64,000 nucleotides of DNA from Mucilaginibacter sp. (GTDB taxonomy: Bacteria; Bacteroidota; Bacteroidia; Sphingobacteriales; Sphingobacteriaceae): contig JAQBOA010000041.1 in the NCBI GenBank assembly GCA_028288305.1, positions 124,001 to 188,000 of the forward strand, written 5' to 3'. Positions 12,769 to 56,315 of this stretch are shown one piece after another. A model generated the notes under the pieces. It made no database searches. It saw only the letters and a list, made by a program, of their open reading frames with translations, and was not told where the DNA came from. The translations under genes and the position numbers were made by a program. Each line of letters opens with the position of its first letter. Position 1 is the first letter of the stretch.

Positions 12769-12956
12769 TGCATTACTAATGCAAATCAAGAGTCAAGATA
12801 TTAGAGCCAAGAATCAAGATAAAAAGGTAAAAACCGGCTCATTTACAGTATTGTACTGACATTGCCTGATTACCTTGTTTCTTTTTAATGGATTTCTTCA
12901 TCCTGTTGCTATTTTCTTGACTCTTGGTTCTTGACTCTTGATTCGCATTACTAAGG
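12769..12956. repeat. Two-arm inverted repeat built of CAAGAGTCAAGA words
   Basis: The left arm (about 12779-12820) contains ATGCAAATCAAGAGTCAAGA followed by near-copies. The right arm (12916-12948) contains CTTGACTCTTG twice and ends in ATTCGCAT. The arms are complementary over most of their length and are flanked on both sides by GCATTACTAA-like sequence. The spacer of about 95 bases is non-coding. It belongs to the same structural class as the other intergenic elements in this half of the window but has its own word. Confidence 0.6.
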
Positions 12957-14256: not shown

Positions 14257-14356
14257 GTCCGAAAGTCGTGAAGTCCGAAAGATGCCTTTTAGTTTTGTAA
14301 TAAAATTTCATTGTAATAATTTTCTTCCGGACTTTCGGACTTCCCGACTTTCGGAC
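14257..14356. repeat. Near-perfect 25-bp inverted repeat of TCCGAAAGTC words
   Basis: Arms at 14257-14281 and 14332-14356 are complementary at 24 of 25 positions. Each arm is itself built of two copies of GTCCGAAAG separated by six to eight bases. The spacer of 50 bases is AT-rich. The element fills the gap between the divergent lolD-like and sucC genes, so it cannot be a simple transcription terminator for both. Confidence 0.75.
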
Positions 14357-14390
14357 TTATTTATTAGCTTTACTGCAAATTCTTCAAAAC

Positions 14391-15588: not shown

Positions 15589-15706
15589 GTCATTGGTCAT
15601 TGTGTCATTAGTCATTGTAAGTTTAATATTAAAAACTGGAACGCAATTCTATAAAATTATGGCCAACGACCATGTAAAATGACTAATAACTCAATGACTA
15701 ATGACC
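15589..15706. repeat. Inverted repeat of GTCATTGGTCATT words
   Basis: The left arm (15589-15617) is a string of TCATTGG/TCATTAG words; the right arm (15678-15706) is a string of AATGACTAAT words. The arms pair with only a few mismatches around a 60-base AT-rich spacer. The ATG at 15701 given by the ORF track for the next gene lies inside the right arm, so the following ATG at 15713 is the better start. Confidence 0.65.
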
Positions 15707-16604: not shown

Positions 16605-16798
16605 ATTATTTCGGAATTTCGGAATTTCGATTTCGGATTTAGAATTGAATTTACATTGCATGCAAATGATTTACCGTTATTGGTTTGTTTATGCTTTTTA
16701 CCAATGAACTAATGAGCTAATGAACCAATGAACAATTTTTGACAATCTGCCAACTGCCCACCGCCAACTGAAAACAAAGCAGATTCCGACAAATAGTA
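16605..16798. repeat. Intergenic stretch with several short quasi-repeats
   Basis: The gap between ftsE and grpE contains TTTCGGAATTTCGGAATTTCG, then AATGAACTAATGAGCTAATGAACCAATGAAC, then CAACTGCCCACCGCCAACTG. Each is a small tandem or quasi-palindromic group of a different word. No gene is present; the minus-strand ORF at 16698-16925 is not credible. Confidence 0.5.
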
Positions 16799-17448: not shown

Positions 17449-17465
17449 ATAATTATTGAATGAGT

Positions 17466-17620
17466 GAATTATTGAATTAGTGAGTTATAGAAAGATTAAA
17501 TTATTGAATAATTGATTTGGCATTTATCTTTTTAATATTACAAATCAAAAAACTATCAATAATTAAATAACTCAATGATTCAACATTGTTAAATTCAGTC
17601 CTTCACTAATTCAATAATTC
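17466..17620. repeat. Perfect 18-bp inverted repeat between grpE and dnaJ
   Basis: GAATTATTGAATTAGTGA (17466-17483) has its exact complement at 17603-17620, with further partial copies of ATTATTGAAT/ATTCAATAAT words between. The spacer is about 120 bases, very AT-rich and non-coding. The two arms bracket the whole gap between grpE and dnaJ. A structured RNA here could affect relative expression of the two chaperone genes. Confidence 0.7.
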
Positions 17621-17637
17621 ATAATTAAAAAAAAGAG

Positions 17638-25624: not shown

Positions 25625-26191
25625 TTACAAATTCATCAACTCTCTATACAGCTTTTCTGTAGGTAACCCCACAACATTAGTATAGGAGCCATTTATCCTT
25701 TCAATACCAATAAGGCCAATCCGTTCCTGAATACCATATGAACCCGCTTTATCCAAAGGCTGATATTTGTTTACATAGCTCCTGATTTCCTCATCAGTAA
25801 GCTTGCCGAAATACACTTCCGAAACATCATAAAAGCTATGATACTGATGTTTATAAAGCAAACAAACTCCTGTTATTACCCTATGCATCCTGCCGGATAG
25901 CAATTGAAGCATTTCAACCGCATGACCCGGAGTTTCCGGCTTGCCAAGTATTTGATTTTCTATGCATACAATAGTATCAGCGGTGAGTACTATCTCATCA
26001 ACAACACTTTCATCAAATGCCCGGGCTTTTTTTTCGGCAATGTAAACTGCTATTTCTTCAGGCTTTAAATGATCTGGATATGATTCATCCACATCTTTTA
26101 AAACAACACGAAATTCAATATCCATTAGCCTTAAAAGCTCCTGCCGCCGGGGAGATTTAGAGGCAAGGATGATTTGGGGAAAATTGTTCAT
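25625..26191 (-). CDS. maf: Maf-family nucleoside triphosphate pyrophosphatase
   Basis: This 188-residue Maf protein begins IILASKSPRRQELLRLM, the signature SxSPRR loop. It has VLTADTIVCIENQILGKP and KAGSYGIQERIGLIGIERINGSYTNVVGLP, both conserved in the family. The enzyme hydrolyses non-canonical or pyrimidine nucleoside triphosphates (house-cleaning) and has been linked to septum formation. The kdsC-like gene follows upstream after an inverted-repeat element. Confidence 0.93.
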   Translation of the reverse strand: MNNFPQIILASKSPRRQELLRLMDIEFRVVLKDVDESYPDHLKPEEIAVYIAEKKARAFDESVVDEIVLTADTIVCIENQILGKPETPGHAVEMLQLLSGRMHRVITGVCLLYKHQYHSFYDVSEVYFGKLTDEEIRSYVNKYQPLDKAGSYGIQERIGLIGIERINGSYTNVVGLPTEKLYRELMNL

Positions 26192-26365
26192 TGGTTCACT
26201 GGTTCATTAGTCATACTGCCAATAAATTCAAATTTTAATATTGTTTATGGGGAGGTTTGAAGATTTGAATTTGAGTTAAAAAGTATAAAATTTATAAATT
26301 GGCTATAGCGCAAATGGGCCATAACGGCACCAATGAACAAATGAACCAGTGAACTAATGAACCAC
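26187..26365. repeat. Inverted repeat of GGTTCACTGGTTCATT words
   Basis: The left arm (26187-26211) is a string of TTCATTGG/TTCACTGG/TTCATTAG words; the right arm (about 26330-26365) is a string of AATGAACCAGTGAAC words. The arms pair at about 21 of 22 positions in the core. It fills the gap between maf and the kdsC-like gene. The word resembles the one at 16705-16735. Confidence 0.65.
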
Positions 26366-26368
26366 ACC

Positions 26369-26890
26369 CTACCAGCTATAGGCATCTTCGTTCATCCATT
26401 TGCCCTGTACTTTCAGCACTTTTTCAATTACATCCCTAACGCAGCCTTTACCACCTGCATAGGGAGAAACATACATACTTACCGCTTTAATCTCTTCAAC
26501 TGCATCGGCAGGACAAACCGGCAGGCCTATTATTTTCATTACCTCCAATTCGGGAATATCATCGCCCATGTATAAAACATTTTCATGGATAATACTTTTT
26601 TCCTCCAGGTAATTTTTGACTTTTACTATTTTGGTATGGATTCCCATATAAACATCTTGCACCCCCCAGCCATTTAATCTGTAAAGTGCACTTTTTGACC
26701 TGCTTCCCGAAACAGCGCAAACATTATAGCCGCACTTAACAGCCAGTTGTATAGCGTATCCATCCTTTATATTAAAGGCTCGGCTTTGCTCACCGCTTTC
26801 AGTTACAAAAACGGTCCCGTCCGTTAGTACACCATCCACATCAAAAATGAAAGTGGTTATATCTTTTAATTTATGTAAGAATGATTCCAC
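26369..26890 (-). CDS. KdsC-type HAD phosphatase
   Basis: The 173-residue protein has the HAD nucleophile motif FDVDGVLTDG (D17, D19), GYAIQLAVKCGYNVCAVSGS and YMGDDIPELEVMKIIGLPVCPADA. This combination is characteristic of 3-deoxy-D-manno-octulosonate 8-phosphate phosphatase in the KdsC subfamily, which lacks a cap domain. It would release phosphate from KDO-8-P in lipopolysaccharide synthesis. Related phosphatases of acylneuraminate pathways share the motifs, so the substrate is probable rather than proven. Confidence 0.82.
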   Translation of the reverse strand: MESFLHKLKDITTFIFDVDGVLTDGTVFVTESGEQSRAFNIKDGYAIQLAVKCGYNVCAVSGSRSKSALYRLNGWGVQDVYMGIHTKIVKVKNYLEEKSIIHENVLYMGDDIPELEVMKIIGLPVCPADAVEEIKAVSMYVSPYAGGKGCVRDVIEKVLKVQGKWMNEDAYSW

Positions 26891-32383: not shown

Positions 32384-33208
32384 ATGAAAAAATTTCTTTA
32401 CCTGAATATTTTTGTTGTTCAGGCAGTAATACTAACACTTACTTCGTGTGTTTCTCAAAAACAAATAACATACTTTCAAAAAGGAGTTAACCAACCGGAT
32501 ACTATAGCAGTTGCAAAGGCCTATATTCCTAAAATTCAACCAGGAGATATTTTGGCAATTAATATAGGTTCACTGAATCCTGCTGCCAGCAGTTTTTTTA
32601 ATCCATATTCAACAATGCCTTTAGGCACTGATGCTAATGATGCAGCAGCTAACGGTACACCATCATCATTGGTACTTAATCAATCAGCTTCACCAAATTA
32701 TTTAGTTGATGCAGACGGTTCAATTGAATTGCCGCTTATTGGCAATATTAAATTATCCGGCCTTTCTACTTCAGAAGCAAGAGATATGATTAAAAACAGT
32801 TTGAAAACATATCTTAAGGGACCTACCGTTAATGTAAGGGTCATGAATTATAAAATATCAATAATGGGGGAAGTTGCCAAGCCATCAGTTTATGTAATCC
32901 CTAATGAAAAAATAACACTGCCTGAAGCATTAAGTCTTGCGGGCGATATGACCATTTTTGGCAAGAGGGATAACGTGCTAATCATTCGGGATAATGATGG
33001 TAAAAAAGAATTTGGAAGGGTAAACCTAAATAGCCGCGAGGTTTATACATCTCCTTATTATTACCTCCATAACAATGATGTGATTTATATTGAACCTAAT
33101 GGAGGAAAGATTGCGCAAACAGATAAAACCTATCAAATTTTACCTATTGTATTGAGTACGCTTTCATTTATTGTTATTATTTTTAGCTATACCCACATAA
33201 AACTTTAA
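32384..33208 (+). CDS. Polysaccharide export lipoprotein (Wza/KpsD-like)
   Basis: The 274-residue protein has a lipoprotein signal with LTSC (Cys about residue 22). The polysaccharide export domain (IQPGDILAINIGSLNPAASSFF) and SLBB-type repeats follow (ISIMGEVAKPSVYVIPNEKITLPEALSLAGDMTIFGKRDNVLIIRD). The C-terminus ends in a hydrophobic helix (YQILPIVLSTLSFIVIIFSY), as in Wza-type proteins that place a helix in the outer membrane. It should form the outer-membrane exit pore for the polymer. It begins the cluster; the Wzc-like gene follows after 14 bases. Confidence 0.9.
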   Translation: MKKFLYLNIFVVQAVILTLTSCVSQKQITYFQKGVNQPDTIAVAKAYIPKIQPGDILAINIGSLNPAASSFFNPYSTMPLGTDANDAAANGTPSSLVLNQSASPNYLVDADGSIELPLIGNIKLSGLSTSEARDMIKNSLKTYLKGPTVNVRVMNYKISIMGEVAKPSVYVIPNEKITLPEALSLAGDMTIFGKRDNVLIIRDNDGKKEFGRVNLNSREVYTSPYYYLHNNDVIYIEPNGGKIAQTDKTYQILPIVLSTLSFIVIIFSYTHIKL

Positions 33209-33222
33209 TTCCTTGCTAACCA

Positions 33223-35577
33223 ATGAGCACTGCTGATAATAACAATAGTATAGACCAAGAAGATATAGACGTTGACCTGCTTGAAAATATAGTTACCTAT
33301 TTCAGACACTGGAAGCTCTTCATTTTATCTATAATTTTCTTTCTATTTCTGGGATATATTTACAATAAATTGGTAACTCCATTATATAGAATAGAATCTG
33401 ATTTGCTTATTAAAGATAATAAACAAGGCGTGAGCAGTCAAAATGACATGCTTAAGGATATTGGCTTGTTCTCATCTGAAAAGATCATTGATAATGAAAT
33501 TCCAATCCTGAAGTCAAATACAATTTTAGAAAAAGTGATAAAATCCCTAAAATTGCAGACCTCGTATATTACCACTGAAGGAGTTCGAAATAAAGAGATA
33601 TATGATAACTTGCCTTTTGAAGCAGAACTTTTAAAACCTTCTTCAAATGCCTATAATATTTCCCTTCCTATTCAGTTAGTGAGTAATCATGAAGCAGTTA
33701 TAAATGGTAAAAAAGTTTCGATAGATTCACCAGTTTTAACTGAAGCAGGATTGATCATTATAAAGCCAAATCAATCGGCCATTAACCCTTATAATAAAAT
33801 TTTATTAATAAATTTTAGTGAAATGGTTGATCTGCTTCAGCGATATAAAAAAAGTTTAACCATAGAACCCGATAGTAAGCAATCTAGTGTATTAATTATA
33901 ACTTTAGAAGATGCTATTCCGCAAAGAGGTAAAGATTTCCTGAACAAGCTTGTAGAGGAGTATAATCTTGCATCTATAGAAGACAAAAATCAGATAACTT
34001 CTAATACTTTATTTTTTATTGATAAAGAATTAAAAAGGATAGCTGATCAACTTGGTTCAGTTGAAAAAAATGTAGAGCAATATAAATCAAGTAACAGGAT
34101 TACTGATATAAGTGCAGAATCGCAAATTTTTTTGCAAAGCGTTCAGGATTATGATGTTCAACTTACCCGGGTAATGATTCAACTTAATGTAATTAACAAT
34201 CTGGAGAATTACCTTCAAAATCATCAGGATCAATCTGCAAAACTACCATCCATGCTTGGAATTGAAGACCCAACTATTTTAGGCTTGGTTTCTAAATTAA
34301 GTGAGACTGAGCTTCGAAGGCAAAATCTTATGCAAACCGTACCGGAAACTAACCCCCTCGTTATTACGCTAACCGATCAGATTAACACTTTAAAGCAATC
34401 CATACTTTCATCAATCCAAAATCTTAAAAATGGATTGCAGATAACTAAGCAACAACTACAAGCTAAGAATAATTTATTTGAATCAACCATTCAAGGGGTG
34501 CCTACTAAAGAGCGTGGCTTATTGGATGTGATGAGGAAGCAAGAAATTCAAAACAACCTGTTTACTTATTTATTGCAAAAACGTGAGGAAACGGCCATGT
34601 CGCTTGCATCAGTTGTGTCTGATAGCCGGACGATTGATTTAGCAAGCAGTAGTAAATATCCTATTAAGCCTGTTAAAAGTGTAGTATATATGGTGTTTTT
34701 TTTAATAGGGCTTATTTTACCAGCGGGTATTATTTTTTTAAGTACGCTTTTAAATTTTAAAATAACCCGCCGATCAGATATTGAACAAGCAACAAAAGTT
34801 CCCATACTGGCCGAAATATCTCACTCAGAAGACTCAGGTGTTATAATAGTATCAAGCAAGCCGCGTTCCATGATTGCCGAACAAATTCGAACGTTAAGGA
34901 CCAATATGCAGTTTGTGCTTCCTGATGAAACTCAAAAAGTCATCCTTTTTACTTCCAGTATTAGTGGGGAAGGTAAATCTTTTGTTTCATTAAATCTGGG
35001 AGCTTCATTGGCAATGACAGGTAAAAAAGTTATTATTTTGGAGTTAGATTTACGTAAACCCAAATTACATAGCGGATTGAGTATTGATAATAGTATAGGT
35101 TTATCTAATTTCCTGGTTGGTAAAGTTGATTACAAAGAAATTATTAAAGAAATACCCTTTCAAAAGGATTATTATATAATTCCAAGTGGCCCCATACCCC
35201 CCAATCCTGCGGAGTTGTTAGCAAATGGACAGATTGATGGACTTATCGAAAATCTTAAGAAAAAATTTGACTATATCGTTTTAGATGCACCACCAATTGG
35301 ATTAGTTACTGATGCACAAATACTGGGAGAATATGCTGATTTGACACTATTTATAGTGAGACATAATTATACCGCAAAAGCGCATATCAAAGCCCTAGAA
35401 AACCTCTATAAAAATAAAAAATTTAAAAACATTAATCTCATTCTGAACTCTGTAGATTTAAAGATGGGTTACGGTTCAAGTTATGGTTATGGTTATGGTT
35501 ATGGTTACGGTTATTACCAAGAGCCAACCCCACGAAAATTTATGGACTTGTTTAATTGGTTTAAAGAAAGAAAGTAA
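33223..35577 (+). CDS. Wzc-like polysaccharide chain-length regulator and tyrosine kinase
   Basis: The 784-residue protein has the Wzz domain with a first membrane helix (LFILSIIFFLFLGYIYNKLV), a long coiled-coil periplasmic region, and a second membrane helix near 495 (VVYMVFFLIGLILPAGIIFL). The cytoplasmic BY-kinase domain follows: Walker A SSISGEGKSF near 580, Walker A' VIILELDLRKPKL, and Walker B YIVLDAPPIG. The tail has a tyrosine cluster, residues 754-765 (YGYGYGYGYGYY), the probable autophosphorylation region. It controls polymer length and export with the upstream Wza-like protein. No partner phosphatase gene was seen. Confidence 0.92.
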   Translation: MSTADNNNSIDQEDIDVDLLENIVTYFRHWKLFILSIIFFLFLGYIYNKLVTPLYRIESDLLIKDNKQGVSSQNDMLKDIGLFSSEKIIDNEIPILKSNTILEKVIKSLKLQTSYITTEGVRNKEIYDNLPFEAELLKPSSNAYNISLPIQLVSNHEAVINGKKVSIDSPVLTEAGLIIIKPNQSAINPYNKILLINFSEMVDLLQRYKKSLTIEPDSKQSSVLIITLEDAIPQRGKDFLNKLVEEYNLASIEDKNQITSNTLFFIDKELKRIADQLGSVEKNVEQYKSSNRITDISAESQIFLQSVQDYDVQLTRVMIQLNVINNLENYLQNHQDQSAKLPSMLGIEDPTILGLVSKLSETELRRQNLMQTVPETNPLVITLTDQINTLKQSILSSIQNLKNGLQITKQQLQAKNNLFESTIQGVPTKERGLLDVMRKQEIQNNLFTYLLQKREETAMSLASVVSDSRTIDLASSSKYPIKPVKSVVYMVFFLIGLILPAGIIFLSTLLNFKITRRSDIEQATKVPILAEISHSEDSGVIIVSSKPRSMIAEQIRTLRTNMQFVLPDETQKVILFTSSISGEGKSFVSLNLGASLAMTGKKVIILELDLRKPKLHSGLSIDNSIGLSNFLVGKVDYKEIIKEIPFQKDYYIIPSGPIPPNPAELLANGQIDGLIENLKKKFDYIVLDAPPIGLVTDAQILGEYADLTLFIVRHNYTAKAHIKALENLYKNKKFKNINLILNSVDLKMGYGSSYGYGYGYGYGYYQEPTPRKFMDLFNWFKERK
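35482..35505 (+). repeat. (TATGGT)4 hexanucleotide repeat in the Wzc tail
   Basis: Four perfect tandem TATGGT units are followed by one TACGGT. They encode alternating Tyr-Gly residues in the C-terminal tyrosine cluster. The unit length is a multiple of three, so gain or loss of units would stay in frame and change the number of tyrosines. Confidence 0.85.
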
Positions 35578-35705: not shown

Positions 35706-37031
35706 ATGTCTAAAAAAATAAATAATTTAAGTATATCTAACCATAATATATATCTTGAAAATGTTAGAATAGCTATTATTGGTTTAGGGTATGTGGGGTT
35801 ACCACTTGCAGTTGAATTTGCGAAAAAATATAAAGTTGTTGGCTTTGATATCAATACTAAAAGAATAGCAGAACTAAATAATGGTTATGACCGCACCCTG
35901 GAAGTAACTGTTGAATCACTTAATGAAGTTAAAAATACTTATAAAGATTCTGGGTTGTTTTACAGTGATCATTTAGAAAGCATTAAAGATTGTAACTTTT
36001 ATATTGCAACTGTTCCCACACCGATAGATAAGTATAATCGGCCAAACCTTACTCCATTATATAAAGCGAGTAAAACGATTGGACAAGTATTAAAAAAAGG
36101 AGATATTGTAATATATGAATCAACCGTATATCCGGGTGTTACCGAAGATGAATGTGTACCCGTTCTTGAAAACGAGTCTGGTTTAAAGTTTAATATTGAT
36201 TTTTTTGTTGGTTACTCTCCTGAGCGTATAAATCCGGGAGATAAAGAACATACTGTTTCTAAAATTTTAAAGATTACTTCAGGTTCTACACCAGCTGCTG
36301 CAGAAAAAATTGATCAATTATACAATTCTGTGATAACTGCCGGCACTTACAAAGCTGCTTCAATAAAAGTAGCTGAAGCGGCAAAAGTTATTGAAAATGC
36401 TCAACGCGATATTAATATTGCTTTTGTGAATGAATTGGCAAAAATTTTCAATTTGATAGGCATAAATACGAATGATGTATTAGAGGCCGCTGGGACAAAA
36501 TGGAATTTTTTGAAATTTAAGCCTGGTCTTGTTGGAGGACATTGTATAGGTGTAGATCCGTATTATTTGGCTCAAAGAGCCCAGGAAGCCGGTTATCATC
36601 CCGAAATCATATTAGCAGGAAGAAGGTTAAATGACGACATGGGTAAATACGTTGCTTCACAAACCATTAGGTTGATGATCCAAAAGGATATTAAAATTAA
36701 AAAAGCTAATGTATTGGTGCTCGGCTTTACTTTTAAAGAAAATTGCCCTGATGTAAGAAATACTAAAGTTATTGATATCGTATTGGAACTGAAAAGTTAT
36801 AATATAAATGTAACTGTTGTGGACCCATGGGCAAATCCATCCGATGTTAGCAGAGAATACAATGTGAAATCAATTAAACAAATACCGGATAATAAGTTTG
36901 ATGCAATTATTTTGGCCGTAGGACATACAGAATTTAGTGCCATTACAATCAGTGATTTTTTGAATAGTAATTCAATAGTGTTTGATGTAAAAGGGATATT
37001 GCCAAAGGATTTAATTGATGGATCATTATAA
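35706..37031 (+). CDS. UDP-HexNAc dehydrogenase (WbpO/TviB-like)
   Basis: The 441-residue nucleotide-sugar dehydrogenase has the NAD-binding [26 protein letters not shown] near residue 25. The catalytic Cys lies in [19 protein letters not shown] near 278, and the C-terminal domain has [19 protein letters not shown]. The pairing with the downstream 4-epimerase, as in the wbpO/wbpP and tviB/tviC pairs, points to UDP-N-acetylgalactosamine or glucosamine oxidised to a uronic acid rather than to UDP-glucose. It overlaps the next gene by one base (TAATG). Confidence 0.88.
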
Positions 37032-38031: not shown

Positions 38032-38808
38032 ATGAAAGTAGTAATTTTGGCAGGAGGTTTAGGAACCCGAATTTCTGAGGAAACCGGGATAAGACCCAAG
38101 CCCATGATAGAAATTGGTGGTAAACCAATTTTATGGCATATAATGAAGATTTATTCGCAATACGGGTACAATGATTTTATTATATGTTTGGGTTATAAAG
38201 GGTATATGATCAAAGAATATTTTATTAATTACTTCTTATATAATTCCGATATAACAGTTGAACTACATAATAATCAGTTAGACGTTCATTACACCAATAC
38301 GGAATCATTTAAAGTAACCCTTGTCGATACGGGTATAAACACAAATACAGCGGGTAGGATAAAAAAAATTCAAAAATATATTGAGGGTGAAACTTTTATG
38401 CTGACTTATGGGGATGGAGTTTCCAATATTAATATTAAAGAGCTTGTTTCATTTCACAAGAATCACGGAAAATTAGCTACGCTTACATCAATACAGCCTC
38501 CCGGTCGTTTTGGGAATCTGGAAACAAATGAAGAAGGTGAAATTTCTAAATTTAAAGAGAAGCCGGAAGGTGATGGTTTATGGATAAATGGGGGGTTTTT
38601 TGTGCTGGATCCGAAAATATTTAATTACCTTGAAGGCGATGTAGACAACGAGCAATGGGAAAACGCCCCTTTATCGTCAATAGCTGCAGATGGACAATTA
38701 TTTGCATATAAACATTATGGCTTTTGGAAGTGTATGGATGCAATGAGGGATAAAATTGAATTGGAAGAAGAATGGAATAGTGGGATTGCACCCTGGAAAA
38801 TATGGTAA
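38032..38808 (+). CDS. rfbF: Glucose-1-phosphate cytidylyltransferase
   Basis: The 258-residue protein matches RfbF closely in pattern: VVILAGGLGTRISEETGIRPKPMIEIGGKPILWHIMKIYS at the N-terminus, then FMLTYGDGVSNIN with metal-binding acidic residues, and GFWKCMDAMRDKIELEE. It makes CDP-glucose from CTP and glucose-1-phosphate, the first step to CDP-linked deoxysugars. The next gene is the dehydratase that uses CDP-glucose. One base separates its stop from the rfbG ATG at 38810. Confidence 0.94.
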   Translation: MKVVILAGGLGTRISEETGIRPKPMIEIGGKPILWHIMKIYSQYGYNDFIICLGYKGYMIKEYFINYFLYNSDITVELHNNQLDVHYTNTESFKVTLVDTGINTNTAGRIKKIQKYIEGETFMLTYGDGVSNINIKELVSFHKNHGKLATLTSIQPPGRFGNLETNEEGEISKFKEKPEGDGLWINGGFFVLDPKIFNYLEGDVDNEQWENAPLSSIAADGQLFAYKHYGFWKCMDAMRDKIELEEEWNSGIAPWKIW

Positions 38809-38809
38809 T

Positions 38810-39895
38810 ATGAGTAAACCCCAAGTGTTAAATTCTATATATTCTGGAAAAAAGGTTTTTTTAACCGGTCACACAGGTTTTAAAGGTTCCTGGTTATTGA
38901 GTTGGCTGCGTCTTTTAGGAGCTGAAATTAAAGGATATGCTTTAAATACGATTAATGAAAACGACTTATATAATTGCATACAAGGGGATACAATTTGTGA
39001 ATCGGTTATTGCTGATATTCGTTCTAAAGAAACGTTAAAAAATGAAATATTACAATTTGAACCCGATTTCATTTTTCATTTGGCTGCCCAGCCATTAGTG
39101 AGAGTATCTTATGAAATACCTGTAGAAACCTTTGAGGTGAATGTAATTGGAACAGCTAACGTTTTGGAGGCGCTAAGATTTCTTGAAAAACCGTGCGTAG
39201 TAGTTGTTATAACAACAGACAAGGTATATGAAAACAAGGAATGGATATATCCCTATAGAGAGAACGACAGCCTTGGCGGATATGATCCATACAGCGCAAG
39301 CAAAGCCTGTGCTGAGTTAGTTATTGGCTCTTATCGTAACTGCTTTTTCAATGTGTTGAACTATTCTAAGCACGGTAAAGCAATTGCGTCTGCAAGGGCA
39401 GGGAATGTAATTGGAGGGGGGGATTGGTCGCAGGATAGAATTATACCTGATGTTGTAAGGGCCTTAAGCCGCAATGAAAGTATAAATGTTCGCAATCCAT
39501 CGGCCATTCGTCCATGGCAACATGTTTTAGAACCACTTTATGGTTATTTATTGTTGGGCGCCAAATTGACTGAGGATCCGATAAAATATTCCGGAGTGTA
39601 TAATTTGGGACCTTATGCCGAAGATACATTGTCTGTAGAAGATTTAGTGAAAGTGGCTATATGTTTATGGGGTAAAGGAGATTATTACAAACTTGATTTT
39701 AATTCTGCGGATCAACCACATGAGGCAGGGATATTAAAATTGGATATCAGCAAAGCTATCAATGAATTAAGTTGGCGGCCTAAGTTAACATCTGATAAGG
39801 CAATCTCCTGGACTATAGATTGGTACAAAAAGGCAGATGACGTTTCCAAAAAAAGTTTTACATTTGAGCAAATATTTAACTATTCTAACCTTTAA
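38810..39895 (+). CDS. rfbG: CDP-glucose 4,6-dehydratase
   Basis: The track start at 38756 reads through the end of rfbF; the ATG at 38810 directly after its stop is preferred (361 residues). The protein begins with the NAD site KKVFLTGHTGFKGSWLLSWLRLLGAEIKGYAL, the RfbG signature, and has YDPYSASKACAE (YxxxK) near residue 160 with IPDVVRALSRNESINVRNPSAIRPWQHVLEPL. It converts CDP-glucose to CDP-4-keto-6-deoxyglucose. It overlaps the following gene by one base (TAATG). Confidence 0.93.
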   Translation: MSKPQVLNSIYSGKKVFLTGHTGFKGSWLLSWLRLLGAEIKGYALNTINENDLYNCIQGDTICESVIADIRSKETLKNEILQFEPDFIFHLAAQPLVRVSYEIPVETFEVNVIGTANVLEALRFLEKPCVVVVITTDKVYENKEWIYPYRENDSLGGYDPYSASKACAELVIGSYRNCFFNVLNYSKHGKAIASARAGNVIGGGDWSQDRIIPDVVRALSRNESINVRNPSAIRPWQHVLEPLYGYLLLGAKLTEDPIKYSGVYNLGPYAEDTLSVEDLVKVAICLWGKGDYYKLDFNSADQPHEAGILKLDISKAINELSWRPKLTSDKAISWTIDWYKKADDVSKKSFTFEQIFNYSNL

Positions 39896-43675: not shown

Positions 43676-45232
43676 TTGTTAAAAAAAATATTACACACCA
43701 CATCACTAAAGGCAAATATCATTGCAAACTTTGTTGGCAGTGGTTGGGGTGCTTTAATAAGTGTTATTTTTATACCATTATACCTTAAATATATTGGTGT
43801 CGAAGGGTATGGCCTGATTGGGATTTTCGCCAGTTTGCAAGTTGTGCTTTCTTTACTTGACAGTGGATTAAGTACAACCTTGAATAAAGAGATAGCAACG
43901 CTAAGTGCGCTGCCCGATACCCAACGGCAAATGCGTAACCTGGTTAAAACGTTAGGCAATATGTATTGGGGCATAGCTTTAACAGCCGGGCTGATAGCGC
44001 TTTGCCTTTCGCCATTACTGGCAAAATACTGGGTACATTCTAAAGAATTAAGTGTCCAAACAATTACTTATGCTTTTGTTTTACTAAGTATTTCCGTAAT
44101 TTTTCAGTTTCCCAGTGGATTTTATAGCGGCGGCTTACTTGGATTGCAAAAGCAAGTTGCTCTTAATGTTTTGCGAGTGTTTTTTGCCACTTTAAAAAGT
44201 GTTGGTGGAGTAATCGTTTTGGCATACGTATCCAGTTCGATTTTAGCATTTTTTAGCTGGATATTGATTGTAAGTATTTTTCAAGCTTTCGCATCCAGGT
44301 ATACTTTGTGGTATTATTTACCTAAAACAGCTATAAAACCAATATTTGATAAAAAAGAACTAAGAAATATTGGTCGTTTTGCAGCCGGCCTTACATTGAT
44401 TGGCTTAACAAGTGTGTTACTTACGCAGGTTGATAATATAGTTTTGAGCAAAATATTATCATTAAAGCAATTTGGGTATTATACTTTAGCCTTTACTGTC
44501 GGGTCTATACTTTATATGATTGTCGGGCCTATTTCACAATCATACTTTCCAAAATTTAGTGTGTTGCTGACCGAAGGAAAATTAGACGAATTAAAAAAAA
44601 TGTATCACCAGGGGTGTCAATTAGTAACATTACTTGTAGTGCCGTTTGCTTTATTTTTGGCATTATTCAGTAAGGAAATTTTACTTATCTGGACGCGTAA
44701 TAGCGTTACTGTTCAAAATACCTGGCAAATAACCTCGATAGTTATTTTAGCGATAGCTATTCATTGCTTAATGTTTATTCCTTATATGCTATGCCTTGCT
44801 TATGGTTATACAAAGCTGGCTTTATATACAAATATTATCATCCTGATGGTAATGATTCCGGGGACTATTTTTTCGGCCATGTATTGGGGGGGATTAGGGG
44901 GTGCGATATGCTGGTTAATTACTAATATTATTTGTTTCTTTGTTAACCCAATAATGATACATAAACTTTTTTTAAAAGGGGAGGCGTTTAAGTGGTATTG
45001 GAATGATACGTTTAAACCTATAATAGCATGTATAATAATATTGCTGTTGTCAAGATTTGTTTTATCAAAAAGTCATTTTGGTATTTCTTTAACCATGGGT
45101 ATCCTTGTAGTTACCTGTATCGCTGGTTTTTGCGTAACCCTTCTTTCTTCCACAGAATTAAAAGAAAATATTGTTGGAAAATTACGTTCCCAATTCAAAA
45201 CAAATAAAACCGGTAAAATTTATGTTAAATAA
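43676..45232 (+). CDS. Wzx-type lipid-linked oligosaccharide flippase
   Basis: The 518-residue protein has about 12-14 hydrophobic segments spread over the full length and begins ANIIANFVGSGWGALISVIFIPLYLKYIGVEGYGLIGIFASLQ, the typical start of the MOP-fold polysaccharide flippases. The start codon is TTG at 43676 because no ATG fits. It would move the undecaprenyl-linked repeat unit across the inner membrane. The downstream glycosyltransferase begins 11 bases before its stop. Confidence 0.88.
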   Translation: MLKKILHTTSLKANIIANFVGSGWGALISVIFIPLYLKYIGVEGYGLIGIFASLQVVLSLLDSGLSTTLNKEIATLSALPDTQRQMRNLVKTLGNMYWGIALTAGLIALCLSPLLAKYWVHSKELSVQTITYAFVLLSISVIFQFPSGFYSGGLLGLQKQVALNVLRVFFATLKSVGGVIVLAYVSSSILAFFSWILIVSIFQAFASRYTLWYYLPKTAIKPIFDKKELRNIGRFAAGLTLIGLTSVLLTQVDNIVLSKILSLKQFGYYTLAFTVGSILYMIVGPISQSYFPKFSVLLTEGKLDELKKMYHQGCQLVTLLVVPFALFLALFSKEILLIWTRNSVTVQNTWQITSIVILAIAIHCLMFIPYMLCLAYGYTKLALYTNIIILMVMIPGTIFSAMYWGGLGGAICWLITNIICFFVNPIMIHKLFLKGEAFKWYWNDTFKPIIACIIILLLSRFVLSKSHFGISLTMGILVVTCIAGFCVTLLSSTELKENIVGKLRSQFKTNKTGKIYVK

Positions 45233-47552: not shown

Positions 47553-48656
47553 ATGTATTTCTATATTGGTCTGATCCTATTGACTCTTTCAATAATTGAA
47601 TCTCTGTTCAAATATGAAATTGGTATCAAAAGAATTCTTTTGATATTTTCGATATCTCTATTCTTTATATTAGTTGCATTTAATACATGGTCTCCTGATT
47701 TAGATAGTTATAAATTACAATATCAAAATTATGATGAACAATATGTAAAATATTCGGTCGAACCAGCGACCTTATTTATAATGAAATATGCCAATATATT
47801 TGGCTTTACATTTGAACAATACCAAATTTTTATCGCTTTCATAATTTTTTTATTATTATATAAATCCCTGGTTAAATATTCTCCCTTACCAGTTTTTATT
47901 TTAAGTTGCTTTTACATCATTCCTTTCTTTCCCAATATAGTTCAGGTAAGAAGTTTTCTTTCCTATTCTATATTGATTTATGCGCTCAGATTTTTAAATA
48001 ATCAAAAAATAAAATTTTGGATGTTATTCCTTGTTGCCTTTTTTATACATTATTCTGTTTTAGTTTTTTTGCCTTTCATCTTTTTAAAAAGGTTTCCATT
48101 CTATAACTCAGTCAAGAAAAATCATTACATCATACTGATTGGTACTTTACTTCTCTTGTTGGTACCAAAGTCTATTTCTGAACCTGTTTTAATTTTTATA
48201 AATCCAAAGTACTTACAGAATTTAAAAAATAGTAATACTTTTTTGGGAACCTTAACATTATTTATGCCCTTTTACATTATTAATTATTTTGTTTTAAGTT
48301 TCCATGAAAGGAAGTATAAATTTATAGAATATAAAATTGACGAAAAATATAAAAGTTATATTCCATTATTGGTTCAACTCATCCAATATTCAAATTATAC
48401 GATTATATTTCAATACTTTTTACGCGACACATCCAGAATTACGTATATACTTTACTTGGCTACCCTTATTTATTTGTCAATTATTTTATTTTATGGAGTA
48501 TCCAAAAAATACAATAAAAAGAAAGTTACTTTCCTCCGGGTTACAGTGTTATTATGGACAATTTTGATTTTTTATGTAAACTTCTTAATGATTAATCTGG
48601 GGGAATATTTTAAAATAATAGAAAGGGTTTTTGATTCAAATTCAATATTTAAATGA
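47553..48656 (+). CDS. EpsG/Wzy-like polysaccharide polymerase
   Basis: The 367-residue integral membrane protein shows about ten hydrophobic segments, and a central TFEQYQIFIAFIIFLLLYKSLVKYS/ FYIIPFFPNIVQVRSFLSYSILIYALRFL pattern with the QxRS-type motif shared by EpsG-family proteins. It is very rich in A and T. It is the best candidate for joining repeat units into the polymer in the periplasm. No other Wzy candidate exists in the cluster. Confidence 0.78.
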   Translation: MYFYIGLILLTLSIIESLFKYEIGIKRILLIFSISLFFILVAFNTWSPDLDSYKLQYQNYDEQYVKYSVEPATLFIMKYANIFGFTFEQYQIFIAFIIFLLLYKSLVKYSPLPVFILSCFYIIPFFPNIVQVRSFLSYSILIYALRFLNNQKIKFWMLFLVAFFIHYSVLVFLPFIFLKRFPFYNSVKKNHYIILIGTLLLLLVPKSISEPVLIFINPKYLQNLKNSNTFLGTLTLFMPFYIINYFVLSFHERKYKFIEYKIDEKYKSYIPLLVQLIQYSNYTIIFQYFLRDTSRITYILYLATLIYLSIILFYGVSKKYNKKKVTFLRVTVLLWTILIFYVNFLMINLGEYFKIIERVFDSNSIFK

Positions 48657-54552: not shown

Positions 54553-55729
54553 CAATACCCTTGTTCGTGTTACAACTGTTCCAATATCGCTTGAGAAATT
54601 GATAAGTGGTCAAATGCGGTTTCTGAGTGAACAAGGTTTTGAGGTTTATATGATTAGTTCCGATTATGAACAGGCAAAATTTCTGGAAGAAAAGGAAAAT
54701 GGCAAATATGTACCAGTAAACATGACCCGTACCATATCACCTGTTAAAGATTTACTTTCTTTAGTAAAAATGATTTTGGTATTTAGAAGAATTAAACCAA
54801 TAATAGTTCATACACATACCCCTAAAGCCGGTTTAATTGGTATGATAGCCGCTTGGCTTACCAGAGTACCTATACGTTTACATACTGTTGCCGGTTTACC
54901 TTTAATGGAAAGTACTGGAGCTAAGAGGCGGTTATTGGAAATGGTTGAAAAAATAACTTATTTCTGTGCTTCAATGGTTTATCCGAACTCATATGAGTTA
55001 AAAGAATTTATTTTAAATTCAAAGTTTTGTAAAACACCTAAGTTAAAGGTTATAGGCAACGGTAGCAGTAATGGTATTGACACCGATTTTTATAAATTAA
55101 CTCCTCAATTAATTAATAGTGCAGGAGCATTAAGAGCAAAGTATAATATTTCAGAAAGTGATTTCATATTTATATTCGTTGGAAGGTTGGTGAAAGATAA
55201 AGGTATTGAAGAGTTAGTTGATGCATTTGCTGATATTAACATACTTTATCCGGATACACGCCTACTTTTAGTGGGCGGAACAGAACCTGATTTAGATCCG
55301 TTATCTTTTAATTGTATTAAACAAATTGAAGAGAATTCAAAAATTATTTCCGTTGGTTATCAAAGCGATGTTAGAAAATATTTTGCAATAAGTAACGCGT
55401 TGGTTTTTCCTTCCTATAGAGAGGGCTTTCCAAATGTACCTATGCAGGCAGGTTGTTTTAATTTACCATGTATAGTAACTAATATAAATGGATGCAATGA
55501 AATTATTGAAGACGAAAAAAACGGATTGATAATTCCTGTAAAAGATACTGAAGAATTGAAAGTTGCAATGGAACGAATGATGAATGATAAATTATTATAT
55601 TTGCAGCTTAAAGAAAGTGCCCGAAAAATGATAATTGATAGATATGAGCAAAGTGATTTTTGGTTTTTATTGTTGGATGAATATCATACCCATTTAAAAG
55701 AACATGGTTTTCTACTCCCAAATTTTTAA
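54533..55729 (+). CDS. Glycosyltransferase family 4 (PglA-like)
   Basis: The 398-residue GT-B enzyme has an N-terminal acceptor domain (ISLEKLISGQMRFLSEQGFEVYMISSD, PIIVHTHTPKAGLIGMIAAWLTRVPIRLHTVAGLP) and a donor half with FIFVGRLVKDKGIEELVDAFADI, LLLVGGTEPD and PSYREGFPNVPMQAGCFNLPCIVTNINGCNEII (E-x7-E-like). It overlaps the amidotransferase gene by 20 bases. Its place next to the PglC-like enzyme suggests it adds the second sugar of the repeat. Confidence 0.85.
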   Translation: MKAIKTNNTLVRVTTVPISLEKLISGQMRFLSEQGFEVYMISSDYEQAKFLEEKENGKYVPVNMTRTISPVKDLLSLVKMILVFRRIKPIIVHTHTPKAGLIGMIAAWLTRVPIRLHTVAGLPLMESTGAKRRLLEMVEKITYFCASMVYPNSYELKEFILNSKFCKTPKLKVIGNGSSNGIDTDFYKLTPQLINSAGALRAKYNISESDFIFIFVGRLVKDKGIEELVDAFADINILYPDTRLLLVGGTEPDLDPLSFNCIKQIEENSKIISVGYQSDVRKYFAISNALVFPSYREGFPNVPMQAGCFNLPCIVTNINGCNEIIEDEKNGLIIPVKDTEELKVAMERMMNDKLLYLQLKESARKMIIDRYEQSDFWFLLLDEYHTHLKEHGFLLPNF

Positions 55730-56315
55730 ACGATTTTTTGACTTAATTTTTAGCCTTTCTTTATTCATTCTTTTTTTTCCTTTTTTTTTAATTCTTAGCT
55801 TCCTACTCACTATTGCAAACAAGAATACTCCTTTTTTTTTACAATCCCGTCCAGGTAAAAATGGTCATATATTTAAGTTGATTAAATTTAAAACAATGAA
55901 TGATAAGAAAGACGAGAATGGTAATTTTTTATCCGATGCACAAAGGATAACTTCGATGGGCTCATTCATTAGGAAAACATCATTAGACGAAATCCCCCAA
56001 TTGCTCAATGTAATTAAAGGGGACATGAGCCTGGTTGGTCCTCGCCCTTTGTTAATAGAATATCTTCCATTGTATAACAATATCCAAAAAAGAAGACATG
56101 AAGTACGGCCTGGAATTACAGGTTGGGCACAAGTTAATGGAAGAAACTCTATAAGTTGGGAAAAGAAATTCGAATACGACGTTTATTATGTGGATCATAT
56201 GAGTTTTTGTCTTGACCTGAAAATTTTGATATTGTCTGCAAAAAAAGTCTTTAAGGCAGAAGGAATTAGTTTACAAGGACATGCAACTATGCCATTTTTC
56301 GAAAAGACTAAATAA
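55704..56315 (+). CDS. Undecaprenyl-phosphate sugar phosphotransferase (PglC-like)
   Basis: The 203-residue protein is the short monotopic form: one hydrophobic N-terminal re-entrant helix (FFDLIFSLSLFILFFPFFLILSFLL), FKLIKFKTMND, SLDEIPQLLNVIKGDMSLVGPRPLL with the DE catalytic pair, and RPGITGWAQVNGRNSISWEKKFEYDVYYVD. It transfers a phospho-sugar from UDP to undecaprenyl phosphate and starts repeat-unit assembly. The PglE/PglF-like genes just downstream suggest a 4-amino-4,6-dideoxy HexNAc derivative as the sugar. It overlaps its upstream gene by 26 bases. Confidence 0.92.
   Translation: MVFYSQIFKRFFDLIFSLSLFILFFPFFLILSFLLTIANKNTPFFLQSRPGKNGHIFKLIKFKTMNDKKDENGNFLSDAQRITSMGSFIRKTSLDEIPQLLNVIKGDMSLVGPRPLLIEYLPLYNNIQKRRHEVRPGITGWAQVNGRNSISWEKKFEYDVYYVDHMSFCLDLKILILSAKKVFKAEGISLQGHATMPFFEKTK

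Follow-up and report, generated by a model that had tools for sequence, protein, structure and literature searches.

The window, i.e., the whole 64-kb stretch of Mucilaginibacter DNA that was analyzed, contains a gene for a Wzc-type tyrosine kinase with a Wza-type export lipoprotein gene directly upstream and a nucleotide-sugar dehydrogenase gene downstream (Table 1). Nucleotide-sugar dehydrogenases are a class of proteins phosphorylated by BY-kinases elsewhere (PMC8863745). Past the dehydrogenase, sugar-modifying and glycosyltransferase genes were identified, together with a flippase, a candidate polymerase, and an initiating transferase. Because the export gene, the dehydrogenase, the glycosyltransferases, the flippase, the candidate polymerase, and the initiating transferase all occur here, the kinase is set in a Wzx/Wzy-type exopolysaccharide (EPS) locus of Mucilaginibacter. 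Reading of the ORFs at 23.5–62.3 kb, with the PHP family left out, revealed no recognizable cognate phosphatase gene. One low-molecular-weight PTP is encoded in the genome, on another contig. The phosphatase gene ltp1 of P. gingivalis is likewise encoded apart from the kinase cluster (PMC8863745). The ORF listed at 38756–39895 starts with a TTG (38756) that overlaps the preceding sugar-nucleotide transferase gene, and its true start is probably an ATG further in.

Table 1. Features of the kinase gene, its tail, the surrounding EPS locus, and other repeats in the window.
Feature	Positions	Strand	Basis or remark
Array	12914-12944		7-8-mer array
Array	14324-14358		7-8-mer array
Array inverted pair	15589-15619 with 15675-15705		7-8-mer arrays
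Array	16608-16637		7-8-mer array
Array	16703-16733		7-8-mer array
Array inverted pair	17451-17515 with 17556-17626		7-8-mer arrays
Array inverted pair	26186-26211 with 26337-26362		7-8-mer arrays
Wza-type export lipoprotein (Poly_export, SLBB)	32384-33208	+	Pfam; directly upstream of kinase
Wzc-type BY-kinase / PCP-2a polysaccharide co-polymerase, 784 aa	33223-35577	+	Pfam, NCBIfam, and PDB matches
EX2RX2R motif EQIRTLR, aa 553-559	34879-34899	+	E553, R556, and R559 invariant in 12 orthologues
Walker A SSISGEGKSF, aa 578-587	34954-34983	+	Sequence, orthologue alignment
Walker A' ILELDLRKP, aa 605-613	35035-35061	+	Sequence, orthologue alignment
Walker B IVLDAPP, aa 685-691	35275-35295	+	Sequence, orthologue alignment
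Tyrosine tail YGSSYGYGYGYGYGYY, aa 750-765, 8 Tyr	35470-35517	+	(YG)n position conserved in relatives
Perfect (TATGGT)4 hexanucleotide repeat	35482-35505	+	In frame, codons 754-761 of ORF 33223-35577
Post-tract C-terminal tail QEPTPRKFMDLFNWFKERK	35518-35574	+	One or three residues long in L028 and L031
Nucleotide-sugar dehydrogenase (TviB/Ugd type)	35706-37031	+	TIGR03026, 390 bits; downstream of kinase
Wzx-type flippase	43676-45232	+	PF01943, PF13440
EpsG-family candidate polymerase (Wzy role inferred)	47553-48656	+	PF14897, 81.7 bits
Initiating sugar-phosphate transferase	55704-56315	+	PF02397, 210 bits

The kinase exceeds the gathering cutoffs of the Pfam families Wzz (PF02706), GNVR (PF13807), and AAA_31, all in one chain, and scores 153.8 bits against the NCBIfam model for polysaccharide biosynthesis tyrosine autokinases (TIGR01007; cutoff 108). 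Among solved structures, it is closest to octameric Wzc (PDB 7nhr, E = 2.4e-51). The scores against the two NCBIfam equivalogs for E. coli-type Wzc fall under the cutoffs (PRK11519, 205 bits, cutoff 1068; PRK09841, 196.5 bits, cutoff 1248). All four kinase motifs (Walker A, A', and B, and EX2RX2R) are intact, with core residues that do not vary among 12 orthologues. The EX2RX2R motif plays a role in BY-kinase oligomerization. The C-terminal tyrosine cluster of a BY-kinase is also present, with 8 Tyr within aa 750–765, and the protein has the PCP-2a architecture, with a Wzz/GNVR periplasmic domain fused to the kinase and a Poly_export gene directly upstream. The Pfam and TIGR01007 matches, the Walker motifs, and the 7nhr match agree with an earlier note on this DNA, which had described a Wzc-like kinase. 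The genome also encodes two clear paralogues, whose Tyr-rich tails are irregular and contain no YG arrays.

The tail is encoded in the order TAC GGT TCA AGT (TAT GGT)4 TAC GGT TAT TAC, giving YGSSYGYGYGYGYGYY. Tandem Repeats Finder (TRF) describes this tract as 5.8 copies of period 6 with 93% match. By unit count, (TATGGT)4 exceeds every other perfect run of period 4–12 in the 64-kb window, and the kinase tract is the sole match to (TAY GGN)3 in the genome. The earlier note had placed an in-frame (TATGGT)4 repeat here; the repeat and its frame are as described, while the end given at 35515 cuts the last codon, since YGYGYGYGYGYY (aa 754–765) occupies 35482–35517. The tract was also rightly taken to be the tyrosine-rich tail of the kinase, as the position of the (YG)n run is conserved in relatives, and gains or losses of 6-bp units do keep the frame. 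An on-off switch was ruled out because the units are multiples of three.

The Y-G peptide is widespread among related kinases. A run of 3–11 YG units at the homologous position was found in 88 of approximately 100 distinct relatives, a few of whose sequences are incomplete. Sampling 148 genomes across the phylum placed the 30 best kinases in this same class, and their tails carry YG runs of 2–10 units. A degenerate (YG)4 DNA pattern occurs in 187 of the 301 genomes from the family, and reversing it as a control left almost no matches. Farther out in the phylum, most kinases end in a different Tyr-rich tail, e.g., GYGSYYKYYYYY, and a few have YG arrays. The distant-phylum kinases L188–L197 and L202–L204 share the stereotyped tail GYGSYYKYYYYY or a similar one, and the kinase tail of L200 contains 15 consecutive YG units, the longest seen. 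These comparisons mark the (YG)n tail as a protein motif that is conserved throughout the class. Chance low-complexity DNA was rejected as an origin of the tract because the peptide is conserved across the class.

The codons beneath this peptide are not conserved in the same way. In most relatives the (YG)n codons are mixed, with both TAT and TAC and all four Gly codons used. Four-fold sites differ by 12–52% between sister species whose YG number is unchanged. Both the scrambled synonymous codons and the constancy of YG number despite this divergence indicate that selection acts on the Y-G peptide and not on the DNA repeat, so that the perfect run is incidental.

The number of units changes between species. 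Each species is represented by a single genome in the collections, and the unit number differs in 10 of 18 independent species pairs; counted by residues, tract length changed in 11 of the 18. The kinases of two Mucilaginibacter (L022 and L025) share 99.3% amino acid identity with no indel in 703 aligned core residues, and have 9 and 8 Y[GS] units, respectively. Two further close pairs differ by two units (L007/L008, 95.1% identity, 7 vs. 9; L071/L072, 94.8% identity, 13 vs. 11). Invariance among strains, named in the earlier note as the outcome that would refute a graded contingency locus, is therefore not what is seen at the species level. Among the closest pairs (>97% identity), five of six have the same unit number. 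Across pairs, 10 indels were counted per 278 aa of tract vs. 7 per 12,667 aa of core, approximately 65-fold more per residue (Fisher P = 3e-13). The non-repetitive, lysine-rich tail after the tract is also length-labile, with internal gaps in 4 of 18 pairs and a different end length in 9 of 18. Thus, part of the tract's lability is tolerance of a disordered end, and its excess indel rate over the core may reflect disorder only. In pairs of >90% identity, the tract changed in 4 of 9, vs. 1 of 9 with internal gaps in the post-tract tail. After the final YY of the tract, the L028 and L031 kinases have only three residues (QEE) or one residue (E). Since these two proteins end so soon, the basic post-tract tail of the other relatives appears to be dispensable.

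To judge how unusual the perfect run is, it was compared with codon usage. Given a (YG)5 peptide, at least four identical units are expected with P = 0.011 under local codon usage, in which TAT accounts for 73% of Tyr codons and GGT is the commonest Gly codon, and with P = 0.026 under the gene's own codon use. Runs of at least four identical units occur in 6 of 51 dereplicated relatives vs. 1.67 expected (P = 0.007). On this count, the perfect run goes slightly beyond codon bias and is not exceptional, and a minority of tracts, perhaps including the one in the window, may therefore be recent expansions. Identity between adjacent units in the 51 tracts is at the shuffled level (lag 1, 0.203 vs. 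0.206, z = -0.17), whereas units two apart (lag 2, 12 bp) are more often identical than in shuffles (0.273 vs. 0.207, z = 3.0). Such a pattern is better explained by 12-bp duplications, or by an alternation of codons, than by steady slippage of 6 bp. Recent expansion and a coincidence of codon usage are the two candidate origins of the perfect (TATGGT)4 of the window.

We favor, with a probability of roughly 0.8, the reading that the tract is the phosphoacceptor tail of a Wzc-type autokinase acting in EPS polymerization and export, whose length drifts by occasional indels. The autokinase would control polymerization and export in the Wzx/Wzy-type locus. In its (YG)n array, every second residue of a flexible strand would be one of many equivalent tyrosines, and this strand would pass through the active site of the neighboring subunit; accumulating phosphates would then loosen the oligomer, and a phosphatase would reset it. 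This model draws on E. coli Wzc, in which the tail moves through the neighbor's active site, no single tail Tyr is essential or sufficient, and the octamer fraction falls with a growing number of Tyr-to-Glu changes (PMC8285477). Function there is set by the extent of phosphorylation, not by any individual tyrosine (PMC11986026). A literature search retrieved no phosphorylation data for Bacteroidota (YG)n tails. Because the tyrosines would be redundant, selection would keep the Y-G pattern while tolerating a range of lengths, mostly 3–11 consecutive units, and unit number would be free to drift. Unit number would shift, on the time scale of species, through occasional insertions or deletions of 6 or 12 bp, presumably arising by slippage, with synonymous mutation scrambling the codons between these events.

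The earlier note had proposed that the DNA repeat itself is a graded contingency device, in which frequent hexanucleotide slippage produces within-population variants in Tyr number with altered polymer length or export. The perfect in-frame repeat, the single-unit difference between near-identical species, and the slight excess of tracts with at least four identical units all fit this proposal. Comparable graded in-frame repeats also exist elsewhere, namely the heptads of H. pylori FutA/FutB, where the number of C-terminal repeats tunes a surface polysaccharide as a molecular ruler (PMC2583950). That system is an analogy only: its units have seven residues, the protein is a glycosyltransferase, and within-population variation has been shown for FutA/FutB (PMC2583950). 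Copy number does differ between related genomes, as expected of a contingency locus, but a slippage-prone repeat conserved at the DNA level was not found, since most homologous tracts are scrambled and have no perfect repeat and adjacent units are no more identical than in shuffles. Five of the six closest pairs keep their unit number in the face of the divergence at four-fold sites given above, the post-tract tail varies as well, and four 6-bp copies would be short for a hypermutable tract. These comparisons give the claim little support, and we regard such a locus as improbable; within a population it is possible, not favored. Where relatives spell the same peptide with scrambled codons, finding a perfect in-frame repeat in a single genome says little in favor of a contingency locus. 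It is similarly a long shot that unit number in Bacteroidia Wzc serves as an evolvable dial, where 6- or 12-bp repeat changes would alter phosphate capacity and hence polymer length, with several alleles per population. The perfect run could alternatively have arisen purely by drift among synonymous codons under selection for the Y-G peptide, with no slippage in the lineage of the window. The per-tract probabilities of approximately 0.01–0.03 given codon use, the dozens of tracts in the genus, and the local preference for TAT and GGT make this conceivable. We nevertheless consider it rather doubtful, as runs of at least four units exceed the codon-use expectation among the 51 tracts; moreover, L010, whose GYGSS(YG)4YY tail shares the architecture of the window's tract, is one unit shorter, which is compatible with a gain, although the two share only 65% DNA identity.

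Compatible with the phosphoacceptor reading is a purely neutral drift of length, in which the disorder and redundancy of the tail would leave Tyr number without a phenotype once a minimum is reached. We give this a little less than an even chance. It accords with the variable end length of the post-tract tail (9 of 18 pairs) and with the tolerance of E. coli Wzc to single Tyr changes, whereas the drop in octamer proportion with Tyr-to-Glu number in the same protein argues against it (PMC8285477), as does the peptide periodicity kept across the class despite extensive synonymous divergence. The regular, low-complexity Tyr-Gly sequence might also suggest that the array serves mainly in clustering or partner binding, as an aromatic sticker or scaffold, and not as a phosphoacceptor. 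This is very unlikely, given that the array aligns exactly with the autophosphorylated tail position of solved Wzc proteins and that the kinase motifs are intact. The tail constitutes a natural allelic series of orthologous kinases, some 95–99% identical elsewhere, that differ in the number of equivalent tyrosines. Exchanging tails within this series would allow a test of whether polymer length or export is set by how many tyrosines of Wzc can be phosphorylated.

The kinase resembles E. coli Wzc in its Wzz/GNVR periplasmic part, BY-kinase motifs, C-terminal Tyr cluster, and Wza neighbor. The E. coli tail, however, is an irregular Tyr cluster and not a regular (YG)n dipeptide array, and the cluster in the window differs in having no recognized phosphatase gene. 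The nearest described tail is the (YGX)4 repeat of S. pneumoniae CpsD, also a BY-kinase C-terminal tail of repeated Tyr-Gly units, which is compared here from the literature only; its unit has three residues, and kinase and membrane modulator are two proteins. A mutational study of this repeat (Morona 2003) is cited in PMC4574921. P. gingivalis Ptk1 is likewise a Bacteroidota BY-kinase, needed for EPS/capsule, and phosphorylates sugar dehydrogenases (PMC8863745). As far as reading of the ORFs goes, Ptk1 differs from the kinase of the window in being adjoined by a PHP phosphatase gene. Literature searches returned no relevant report of in-frame tandem repeats in wzc and, among open-access papers, no bacterial report of YGYGYG with a kinase.

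Imperfect 7–8-mer arrays (AATGAACN, GTCATTRG, TTTCGGAC, and others) were also observed in the window, apparently intergenic where checked. Three inverted pairs of these arrays have a spacing of 55–125 bp, and the pair at 26180–26370 folds far better than shuffled sequences (z = -5.7). These arrays could be mobile or hairpin elements. The AATGAACNAATGAAC sequence occurs 15 times in the genome, vs. 0 for its reversed control.
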